Part shown: positions 47,565 to 51,427 of the stretch, piece after piece
How the letters are laid out: each line of letters begins with the position of its first letter
Numbering within the stretch: the first letter of the stretch is position 1
Source of the DNA: Halobaculum sp. MBLA0147
GTDB taxonomy: Archaea > Halobacteriota > Halobacteria > Halobacteriales > Haloferacaceae
Reading direction: 5' to 3'
Assembly (NCBI RefSeq): GCF_041361345.1
Contig: NZ_JBGKAD010000005.1
Location: 1 to 64,000 of the forward strand
Length of the DNA stretch: 64,000 bases
Translations under genes and position numbers: made by a program
Notes under the pieces: generated by a model
What the model was told of the DNA's origin: nothing
Database searches by the model: none
Seen by the model: the letters and a program-made list of their open reading frames with translations, nothing else

Positions 47565-48899
47565 ATGGCCGCACCGACAGATGTTCAGGATGGTGACAAC
47601 CTCGTGTCGAGAAGTGGCGAGTCGGATGAGATGGACTGGCGCCGGTCGTTCGAACTGCTTGTGTCACACTTTCCTGAGCCGGCATTCATCGTGGACGCGT
47701 CTGGGACAATCACGCTGTGGAACGACGCTGCGAGCGAGCTGATGGGCGTGCCTGCGGGCAAGGCTGAGGGCATGGGCGCGTACGAGTTGTTCGGCACAGA
47801 AGGCGAAGACGAGACGCTCGTTGAGACAGTACTCCGGACGGGGGAGACGATTCAGGAAGACTCTATCCGGTCAGCGGAGACACCGAAGGGAACGACAGAA
47901 CACGCGCGAGCGCTGGCTACTCCGATCACAGCCCCTGACGGGTCTATCGTCGGTGGTGTGGAAGTGTTGACGCAGGTTACGTCGTTTGTGGAGCAACGGC
48001 AGGAGATTGAGGAGTTGCAAGAGCGGATGACAGACGACGTTGAGTCGTCTGTGGACGCGTTTCGAACTGCGGCCGCTACTGCGGCCGACCAGTCTGAAAC
48101 CGCCGCTGAGACGGCTGCTGCGCAGTCCGAGAGCATCCAAGATGTCCAACAGGAGGTGGCAACGTTCTCAGCAACGGTCGAAGAGATTGCATCGACGGCT
48201 GAAGCCGTGTCGAATCAGGCTGAAACGGCCGAACAGTTGACCACGGAGAGCGCGCAGTCGGCACGCGACACAGCAGAGTCTGTCGAAGACGTTGCAGCAC
48301 AGGCTGACGAGGTGGCCGCTGATGCTCGTCGACTCGGCGAGCGCGTCGACGAGATCAGTGAGGTGGTGAACGTGATCGACGAAATCGCCGATCAGACGAA
48401 TATGCTCGCGTTGAACGCGAATATCGAAGCGGCTCGAGCGGATCAGGGTGGAGATGGCTTTGCAGTCGTCGCGAACGAAGTGAAGAACCTCGCAGAACAG
48501 AGCAAGGAGCGGGCTGAGGAGATTGCGGACATCGTCAGTGATGTCCGTGAGACTGCATCGACGACTGTCGACCGCGTCGAGGCGTCGAACGCTGCAGTGA
48601 GCGAGATTGCCGACGAAATCGAGGATGTCGAGAGCAACCAAGCGGAGATCGAGGCGGCGATCACTGAGGTGAACAATGGCCTGTCAGAAATCGCGAACGC
48701 GACCGGTGACCAAGCCACCAGTGCTGAGGAGGTCGCCAGCATGGTCGATACGGTTGCCGACCAGAGTGACGAGCTTGTCGCGGCTGTTGAGCGGACGGCC
48801 ACGGCGACAGACAAACAACGGGAGATGGCGGACGAAATCAGCGAGACCGTTGTAGCACTCGAAGAGGAGATTGCGGCTGTCTCTGATCAGATCAGGTAG
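47565..48899 (+). CDS. Soluble PAS-domain chemotaxis receptor
   Basis: A methyl-accepting chemotaxis protein of 444 residues with no membrane helix. A PAS domain covers about residues 25-140 ('FPEPAFIVDASGTITLWNDA'). A short coiled coil leads into the signalling domain, whose tip reads 'TNMLALNANIEAARADQGGD' around residue 285. It would sense a small molecule or redox state in the cytoplasm and signal through CheA/CheW, which are not encoded here. It is close to the opsin-like/transducer operon on the opposite strand. Confidence 0.93.
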   Translation: MAAPTDVQDGDNLVSRSGESDEMDWRRSFELLVSHFPEPAFIVDASGTITLWNDAASELMGVPAGKAEGMGAYELFGTEGEDETLVETVLRTGETIQEDSIRSAETPKGTTEHARALATPITAPDGSIVGGVEVLTQVTSFVEQRQEIEELQERMTDDVESSVDAFRTAAATAADQSETAAETAAAQSESIQDVQQEVATFSATVEEIASTAEAVSNQAETAEQLTTESAQSARDTAESVEDVAAQADEVAADARRLGERVDEISEVVNVIDEIADQTNMLALNANIEAARADQGGDGFAVVANEVKNLAEQSKERAEEIADIVSDVRETASTTVDRVEASNAAVSEIADEIEDVESNQAEIEAAITEVNNGLSEIANATGDQATSAEEVASMVDTVADQSDELVAAVERTATATDKQREMADEISETVVALEEEIAAVSDQIR

Positions 48900-49055: not shown

Positions 49056-49805
49056 TCAGTCGGCTGACGAGCCAGTCGTTTCACGACCAGCTGACTGACT
49101 GCCGTCGTACTCGGCCTCAAACAGCAACTGCACCGACTCATCGTCGAACCCGGTGAACTTGTAAATAAAGAAGGCTGGAAGGCCTGCTGAGAAAATATAT
49201 CCAACGTATTGTAGGAGGAGTTGACTCAACACTTGCTCGGTCAACACGCCGGATAAGAGTAGTCCCACATAAACGAGAACCATTGCGTACACGAACAGGA
49301 GCAGATTGCGAGCCTTCCAGTAGAGCAACCGGCGACTCGGGGGGAGAGACGCTGACAGCCGCTCTAGCCGGCCGAAGAAGAAGTACAACAGGAGCGGAAA
49401 CGGGAGTAGGAATCCAACGGTAATGAGCAATAACAGTGCCCCTCCACTGGCGATCAAGGCCCCTATCTCAGTGACGAATACTGGCAACAGCGCGACCACG
49501 ATCATCGTCGCCGTTAGTCGCCGGGACCCACCGCCGAGGCGGACGACAGCACCGTACAACACAACGTATTCGATCGTCTGTGAGAGGAGAGTACTCACAC
49601 CAAACGAACCGGACCCAACAGGCACACTTCCGACACCAAGGAGTTGTGCGACGAGGTCTAACGCGGCTGCCACTACGACCACGATGAACACCCCAGCGTA
49701 CGTTTGCAATCGTGAGGGAACCCGCGTTGTCGCCGCGAGGAACACCACTGCAGCGATACCGTAGAGTGCAGCGAAGACCGCCTGGATCAGTTCGACAGAG
49801 ATCAT
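49056..49805 (-). CDS. Sensory rhodopsin II-like opsin lacking retinal lysine
   Basis: A 249-residue seven-helix protein that aligns, from memory, with sensory rhodopsin II of Natronomonas. Matches include 'LGVGSVPV' (56-63, SRII has LGVGWVPV) and 'WKARNLLL' (163-170, SRII has VRLRNLTV). The retinal-binding lysine of helix G is absent: the position is serine 206 in 'YIFSAGLP'. Other pocket residues also changed: the Schiff-base counterion corresponds to glutamate 79, the conserved arginine to glutamine 76, the helix-G aspartate to glycine 202, and helix-F tryptophans to Y173 and V180. The tyrosine used for transducer contact seems kept (Y200). It overlaps the transducer gene by four bases, like sopII in htrII-sopII operons. 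Confidence 0.85.
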   Translation of the reverse strand: MISVELIQAVFAALYGIAAVVFLAATTRVPSRLQTYAGVFIVVVVAAALDLVAQLLGVGSVPVGSGSFGVSTLLSQTIEYVVLYGAVVRLGGGSRRLTATMIVVALLPVFVTEIGALIASGGALLLLITVGFLLPFPLLLYFFFGRLERLSASLPPSRRLLYWKARNLLLFVYAMVLVYVGLLLSGVLTEQVLSQLLLQYVGYIFSAGLPAFFIYKFTGFDDESVQLLFEAEYDGSQSAGRETTGSSAD

Positions 49806-51427
49806 TTGTCGGTCACCCCCGTCGCTTCGGTAGAGCGTTGTGTCAAAGCACGCCCCTCCGCGCTAGAGTGTCCAGCATCAACGGTAGCCGAGTTGCCCTC
49901 CCGTGTCTCCGAATAGTGTGTGGTCGCTGTCGTTTCTCGAAGGTTGAAGTTGGACAGTCGCTCTCGGAGGTCGGCAGTCTGCTCGGCCAGACTCTCGGCG
50001 AGTGATTCAAGATCATTCATCGTTTCGGCTGTCGCGTCCGCTGTGTCGGCCAACGTCTGGCTCCGCTCTGCGACCGTCTGCACCGCGTCACGAGCTTCGT
50101 TGATCTGAACTGTCACTTCTTCGGTGGAGGCTGCTCCGTCATCTGTCGCCCGAGCAATCTCCTCTGTTGAGGCGTCAATTCTCGTGACGATCTCAGCGAG
50201 TTCTTGGAATGTATGGCTCGCGTCGGTAATCGTCTCACTTCCGTCAGTGATCCGTGACCGTGTCTCGGTCATCTCCTCACTGACTGCAGCCGCGTCGGCT
50301 TGTGTCTCGGTGATAATTGCGTTCACGTCGTCAATAGCAGTCTGTGTCTCTTCGGAGAGACTTCGAACTTCGTCGGCGACGACCGCGAAGCCATCACCAT
50401 CCGTGTCAGCTCGCGCCGCTTCGATGTTGGCGTTCAGTGCGAGGATGTCTGTCTGTTGTGCGATGTCATCGATGAGCTCTGTCGTCTCGCCAACGTCGGT
50501 CATTTGCTCGTCAAGTCCTCGGACTAACTCTGCAAGCCGATCCACATTCGATTCGATCGCTTCAATAGCGTCAACGACAGCATCAGCCTGATTGGCACCG
50601 ATCTCTGCTTTCTCACCGCCCTGTCCAGCTTGTTCTGCGAGTTCGTCCGCCGTCGCTGCGACCTCTTCGATGGTCGCGGAGACATCACTGACCTCCTCGG
50701 TCGTTGTATCTAGAGTTTCTGCCTGCTGAGTAATTTCGTCTGCGACCGCCCGAATTTCGACCGCCAGTTCTGCTTGGTCATCGGCGAGATTGCCGGCATC
50801 ATGGGCGACAGTGTCTGCGGTCGTTTCAACTTCAACGACAAACTCTCTGAGTCGGGTGAGTGTGACCGAGAGTTCTTCTGTCATGTCGGTGTATGCGTCG
50901 GCGATCTGGTCGGTCGCCTCGGCGTCCACGTCAAGATCGAGTTCCTGTGTCAGGTTACCGTCGGCGACTGCTGAGAGTGCCGCTCCAATCTCGTCTGCAG
51001 CCGTCAGGAGCGAGTTATTGAATGCCTCGGCGTCTGCTCGGGCTGTCTCGGCCTCTTGGCGAGCCTGTGCCGACTTGTCAAACGCCTCACGGAGTGAGTC
51101 TCGCATCGACCGCAGGGAATCGGCGAGTTGGCCCACCTCGTCGGAGCGGGAACTCTGTGGGTCCACATCCAGGTTTTCGTTGCCGATTGCTTCTGCGGCG
51201 TCGGTGAGTTGTCTCAGTTCGGTCGCAACGTCGCCACCAACAACAATCCCGAGTAGTCCGAGGTGAAGCAAGAAGAGATATGCGACGGTTGCGACGACGG
51301 CAGTTACACCGACCTCCGCTGTGACCGCGTACTGCCACACGATGTACAGGAGCAGTATGGTGGCAATCGCGACCACGTTCAGTACCACGAACAACCGGTA
51401 CGTGTACCGTGACCTGATTCGTTCCAT
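49802..51427 (-). CDS. HtrII-like sensory transducer
   Basis: A 541-residue chemotaxis transducer with two closely spaced membrane helices (about 12-33 and 39-63) and almost no extracellular loop, as in haloarchaeal Htr proteins. Two HAMP-like regions (about 64-120 and 140-200) lead to the signalling tip 'TDILALNANIEAARADTDGD'. Because there is no ligand-binding domain, the signal must come from a membrane partner, which fits the opsin-like protein encoded just downstream with a four-base overlap. Output to CheA/CheW is expected; those genes are outside the window. Confidence 0.9.
   Translation of the reverse strand: MERIRSRYTYRLFVVLNVVAIATILLLYIVWQYAVTAEVGVTAVVATVAYLFLLHLGLLGIVVGGDVATELRQLTDAAEAIGNENLDVDPQSSRSDEVGQLADSLRSMRDSLREAFDKSAQARQEAETARADAEAFNNSLLTAADEIGAALSAVADGNLTQELDLDVDAEATDQIADAYTDMTEELSVTLTRLREFVVEVETTADTVAHDAGNLADDQAELAVEIRAVADEITQQAETLDTTTEEVSDVSATIEEVAATADELAEQAGQGGEKAEIGANQADAVVDAIEAIESNVDRLAELVRGLDEQMTDVGETTELIDDIAQQTDILALNANIEAARADTDGDGFAVVADEVRSLSEETQTAIDDVNAIITETQADAAAVSEEMTETRSRITDGSETITDASHTFQELAEIVTRIDASTEEIARATDDGAASTEEVTVQINEARDAVQTVAERSQTLADTADATAETMNDLESLAESLAEQTADLRERLSNFNLRETTATTHYSETREGNSATVDAGHSSAEGRALTQRSTEATGVTDK

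Follow-up and report, generated by a model that had tools for sequence, protein, structure and literature searches.

The closest described relatives of the protein considered here are the opsin-related proteins (ORPs) of haloarchaea, 48 of which were described by Becker et al. in 2016 (PMC4915679). These lysine-less proteins were divided into two groups, with group A having arginine at the lysine position and group B a hydrophobic residue there. Fifteen of the 16 group A ORPs adjoined a gene for a HAMP/MCP transducer, and a light-independent receptor role, with taxis to stimuli other than light, was proposed. Transcription of ORPs was shown in the same study, but the native protein was not found by MS, and two related ORPs gave no retinal binding and no pigment in vitro (PMC4915679). 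No paper naming an ORP stimulus was found in the open-access literature. The second system of relevance is sensory rhodopsin II (SRII) with its transducer HtrII, in which HtrII is bound through Thr189 and Tyr199 of SRII; once these residues were transplanted into BR or HR, both bound HtrII (PMC3274258). A sequence-only reading of the present locus had put forward the lysine-less opsin with a dedicated transducer as novel. This did not survive, since the arrangement is already in Becker et al. (PMC4915679) with the same role proposed. What appears to be new here is an arginine-less side branch, together with the evolutionary evidence for that branch.

The window, which is the whole stretch of 64,000 nucleotides of Halobaculum sp. 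MBLA0147 that was analysed, carries the ORP gene and its transducer gene as follows.

49056..49805, minus strand: ORP (opsin-related protein), 249 aa, seven helices, Schiff-base lysine absent
49802..51427, minus strand: cognate HAMP/MCP transducer, htrII-like, 541 aa, immediately upstream of the ORP in the same operon
49802..49805, minus strand: overlap of transducer stop and ORP start, 4 bases, ATGA
49188..49190, minus strand: Ser206 codon TCA, aligning with NpSRII K205; Ser also in the same-genus orthologue
49206..49208, minus strand: Tyr200 codon, equivalent to NpSRII Tyr199, which binds the transducer; Tyr in every aligned ORP
49239..49241, minus strand: Thr189 codon, equivalent to NpSRII Thr189, the second transducer-binding residue; the orthologue also has Thr
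51338..51394, minus strand: transducer membrane helix 1, aa 12-30, from hydropathy; aligns with NpHtrII TM1
51242..51298, minus strand: transducer membrane helix 2, aa 44-62, from hydropathy; contains His55, which aligns with NpHtrII Asn74
51086..51217, minus strand: transducer HAMP domain, aa 71-114, Pfam PF00672
50093..50635, minus strand: transducer MCP signalling domain, aa 265-445, Pfam PF00015
51452..51459, minus strand: TTTATTTT, candidate TATA box, 25-32 bases 5' of the transducer ATG, from sequence

Both ORFs were found in the order and with the 4-base overlap of htrII-sopII, in agreement with the earlier reading, and the transducer proved to have two hydrophobic helices and no ligand domain, as Pfam gave HAMP and MCPsignal only. 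The motif TTTATTTT 5' of the transducer gene is tentatively regarded as a possible leaderless haloarchaeal promoter element. A soluble PAS-MCP transducer is encoded convergently with the ORP gene (window 47565-48899, plus strand), and a close paralogue of it lies on contig C4 of the same genome (143171-143686, L136).

The window ORP is barely recognizable from its own sequence. It scored 8.5 bits against Pfam PF01036, under the cut-off of 24.6, had no match in NCBIfam, and retrieved rhodopsins from the PDB by phmmer at an E value of about 5 only. Its divergence was too great for a single-sequence search of GTDB contigs and PLSDB plasmids to return any relative. In three species the group A ORPs likewise gave no PF01036 match, and proteins of this kind are therefore missed by family-based annotation. 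With a profile of 19 relatives, NpSRII became the top PDB match (E value of about 1e-18), and its K205 fell into the column of Ser206. An AlphaFold model built from the window ORP and 28 relatives (mean pLDDT 89, pTM 0.81) comprised seven helices (residues 4-28, 31-55, 70-90, 95-117, 123-144, 156-185, and 191-218) and a beta hairpin between helices B and C. Foldseek ranked SRII structures first for this model (E value of 2.4e-6, TM 0.74/0.85), and VIA-align returned rhodopsins throughout, with Z values of about 24 alike for middle rhodopsin, SRII, and bacteriorhodopsin. The predicted fold is accordingly that of a rhodopsin with SRII nearest, and the likeness to SRII claimed at first sight was upheld by profile, model, and Foldseek alike.

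Residues were assigned by alignment with NpSRII and are compared in NpSRII numbering. Ser206 replaces the Schiff-base lysine K205, the counterion D75 is Ser75, R72 is Thr72, and D201 is Gly202. The pocket tryptophans W76, W171, and W178 are Gln76, Tyr173, and Val180, respectively; Y174 is Val176, and T79 and T80 correspond to Glu and Tyr. The sequence-only reading had listed the changes of the lysine to Ser206 and of the counterion, arginine, and helix-G aspartate, all of which were recovered in this alignment. It was also right that pocket tryptophans are altered but gave their number as two instead of three. All Schiff-base and counterion features are thus lost in the alignment. Ser206 is also present in the same-genus orthologue, which ruled out both a sequencing error and a normal SRII whose lysine had been misaligned. 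The interface residues of NpSRII, Thr189 and Tyr199, are present (Thr189 and Tyr200). Since the pocket and counterion residues are replaced while these two are kept, the pigment side was deduced to have been lost and the transducer side to have been retained.

The relatives compared came from 292 genomes of the class (a match in 62, a few of these being canonical lysine-bearing rhodopsins), from named GTDB contigs (29 loci), and from genomes of the family and genus. In a tree of 78 rows, the ORPs formed a clade of 63 rows (support 100/99) adjoining the sensory opsins, and the window ORP fell inside the group A clade of 34 rows (support 100/99). Its neighbours were L068 (JAQCMZ010000358.1), from a Haloferacaceae MAG, and the second ORP of its own genome, to which it is 34% identical. 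That second ORP is of the Arg type and forms a further ORP-transducer pair (L112/L010; contig C3, 197672-198379, plus strand). L068 has Tyr at the Schiff-base position, is sister to the Ser type, and has a transducer gene upstream. A different ORP match, in a Halorubrum-group genome, falls into two pieces (G153, contig C1, 2929472-2930091) and is possibly a broken copy.

As a lysine-less type 1 opsin homologue within the ORP clade, the window protein shows two general features of an ORP. It clusters with the Halorubrum-type ORPs and adjoins a HAMP/MCP transducer, as group A members do, and it has Ser206 in place of the group A arginine and Gln76 in place of the Asp at the W76 position. The group B combination (hydrophobic 205, Arg72, Gly75, and Tyr76) is absent. 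Of the marks of SRII, the Schiff-base lysine and Asp counterion are missing (Ser206 and Ser75), and the HtrII-binding residues Thr189 and Tyr199 are found as Thr189 and Tyr200. The best explanation is that the window protein is a haloarchaeal ORP of the group A lineage, descended from a sensory opsin.

Arginine occupies the Schiff-base position in 38 of 41 nonredundant group A ORPs. The three others are the window protein (Ser), its orthologue (Ser), and L068 (Tyr), and since all of them belong to one branch within group A, the arginine was lost there. This side branch is small, was not mentioned in the 2016 description of group A, and is apparently unreported. An acidic residue in helix C, at position 75 or 76, was found in 37 of the 38 Arg-type proteins (at 75 only in two lineages), L041 being the sole Arg-type member devoid of one, and in none of the three Ser/Tyr proteins. 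Arg205 and the acid at 75/76 may form an ion pair succeeding the Schiff base and its counterion, with the non-Arg cases counting as one branch. The covariation was rejected as proof of such a pair because the three exceptions are one clade and L041 has arginine but no acid.

The association with a transducer was examined across the family. An MCP gene lies directly upstream of 45 of the 46 group A genes (the two usually overlap by 4 or 8 bases) and of 14 of the 29 group B genes. Nothing beyond the ORP and transducer pair was common to the neighbourhoods across genera, and no neighbour hinting at a ligand was found among them; an HPRT-like gene beside the orthologue was considered as such a hint and rejected, as it is absent beside the window gene. 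In the transducer tree, the group A transducers formed a single clade (17 of 17, support 100/100), separate from the group B transducers, from the transducers of the lysine-bearing sensory rhodopsins of the window's own genome, and from all other MCPs of that genome included in the tree. The branch order ((window, orthologue), L068), paralogue was identical in the ORP and transducer trees. Path distances in the two trees were correlated (r = 0.84 for 28 pairs, reached in 0 of 2000 permutations), a value that partly reflects shared descent. On the evidence of these trees, ORP and transducer are co-inherited as a two-gene module.

The transducer itself is of the HtrII type in having two TM helices, a HAMP domain, an MCP domain, and similarity to NpHtrII, which was the best PDB match of aa 1-120 (E value of about 1e-9, spanning TM1, TM2, and HAMP). 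The Asn74 of NpHtrII TM2, the partner of Tyr199, is replaced by His55, and the interface is therefore not identical to that of SRII/HtrII. Asn is found at this place in the orthologue's transducer and in most group A transducers. The host genome encodes CheW-domain proteins and archaellins, so an output in taxis exists. Its MCP genes number about 32 (33 domain matches).

From these data, the window ORP is probably a membrane receptor that works without retinal and drives its own Htr-type transducer through helices F and G, in an SRII-like coupling. Such a receptor would be light-independent or ligand-binding, as first suggested. ORP and transducer would form a complex via helices F and G and TM2, like SRII/HtrII, and a stimulus other than retinal photoisomerization would displace helix F or G. 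The stimulus would most likely be a small molecule or a membrane or ionic condition that works on the rebuilt core of helices C, F, and G, and the movement would pass to TM2, HAMP, and then CheA and the archaellum. With its Arg/Asp pair gone, the Ser206 branch probably responds to another stimulus than the other group A members do, or to a more neutral one. A more specific proposal is that group A uses Arg205 and Asp76 (or Asp/Glu75) as a switch pair, that the Ser/Tyr branch lost the pair and turned to a different, uncharged stimulus, and that a split in ligand specificity thus arose among archaeal seven-helix chemoreceptors derived from a light sensor; this we offer as speculation that is unlikely to hold.

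The retention of the interface residues beside a diverged core would also suit an accessory or assembly partner that senses nothing itself, either a structural subunit positioning or adjusting the transducer within receptor arrays or a competitor of SRII for transducers. Fungal ORPs have been reported to be chaperone-like (cited in PMC7714340). The partner of the window ORP is, however, a dedicated transducer from a clade of its own, and the helix C/G core is strongly conserved in group A (Arg205 and Tyr80), which would be needless for a passive subunit. We therefore consider an accessory role improbable.

A role as a light receptor, in which the old pocket would hold retinal noncovalently or a different chromophore and signalling to the transducer would continue, was also considered. 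The host genome contains retinal-forming BCD enzymes and eight lysine-bearing rhodopsins, so that retinal is probably present and its absence is no argument for the window's own species. Moreover, lysine-less BR and visual rhodopsin can work with aminated retinal analogues, and the assays of Becker et al. did not extend to an alternative chromophore (PMC4915679). Against this, every pocket aromatic has been replaced, as have the two counterion residues, the two ORPs assayed formed no pigment with retinal (PMC4915679), and group A members persist in genomes devoid of BCD or a detectable rhodopsin. No BCD-family and no PF01036 match was obtained in three group A species (G026, G138, and G146; completeness 99%), and a fourth (G058) had no BCD match and one weak PF01036 match. 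The same pattern was reported for crtY and brp in eight species (PMC4915679). Taken together, a chromophore in the window ORP seems very unlikely, and the retinal-independent receptor is preferred.

The eight lysine-bearing rhodopsins of the host (L001-L008) are spread over contigs C1, C3, C4, and C5, and at least five of them have an MCP-type transducer gene upstream. Two are members of near-identical rhodopsin-transducer pairs on different contigs (L007 at C4:120906 and L008 at C5:212555), which suggests that a block was duplicated between C4 and C5. The photosensory and chemosensory gene set of this genome is unusually large.

The orthologue in the same-genus genome G292 (74% complete) is 53% identical to the window ORP, has a transducer gene upstream, and keeps Ser206, Gln76, Thr189, and Tyr199; the Tyr member of the branch comes from one MAG. 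Between the window gene and the orthologue, third codon positions differ by 61% and second positions by 29%, with a dN of about 0.44 and a dS of about 2.4 (NG86; dS saturated). The end branches of the window ORP and of the Arg-type paralogue are equally long in the 78-row tree. Codon comparison thus indicates a maintained gene under purifying selection, and the gene pair and Ser206, both kept in the orthologue, mark a conserved type and not random decay, as had been anticipated. One might imagine a sensory rhodopsin in decay, carried by a plasmid-like contig, from the location of the gene on a 220-kb contig and from the second change at the Schiff-base position inside group A (R to S/Y), but with an open frame, a conserved pair, a conserved Ser206, a dN far under dS, and a branch no longer than the paralogue's, this is scarcely credible.

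If ORPs prove to be receptors, the type 1 opsin family would cease to be confined to light, and a seven-helix receptor of archaea would parallel the GPCRs of animals. A conserved branch that has not even the replacement arginine allows the switch position to be compared in three naturally occurring states (Lys, Arg, and Ser/Tyr). One genome holds eight lysine-bearing rhodopsins and ORPs of both the Arg and the Ser type, each with its own transducer, so a direct comparison is feasible in a single host background. The function of the whole ORP family is now more directly testable.

Among the known systems, ORP group A (PMC4915679) shares with the window ORP its clade, the missing lysine, a position downstream of a HAMP/MCP transducer, the retention of Tyr199, the loss of Y174 and W178, and sensory opsins as nearest relatives. 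The window ORP differs in Ser for Arg 205, Gln for Asp 76, Val for Ala 178, and Thr for Asp 189. With SRII/HtrII of Natronomonas pharaonis (NpSRII and NpHtrII) it shares the fold, the operon order, a two-helix HAMP transducer, and Thr189 and Tyr199, but the lysine, counterion, Arg72, Asp201, and pocket aromatics are gone and Asn74 of the transducer is His55. Group B (Natrialba type) is also lysine-less, haloarchaeal, and in possession of Tyr199; unlike the window ORP, it has Gly75/Tyr76, Arg72, an acidic 201 (Asp or Glu), and a hydrophobic 205, occupies ORP and transducer clades of its own, and adjoins a transducer in about half of the cases. The Rh-noK proteins of algae and fungi (e.g., Guillardia theta; PMC7714340) are likewise lysine-less homologues of microbial rhodopsins, but their lysine was lost independently and they have no haloarchaeal transducer.
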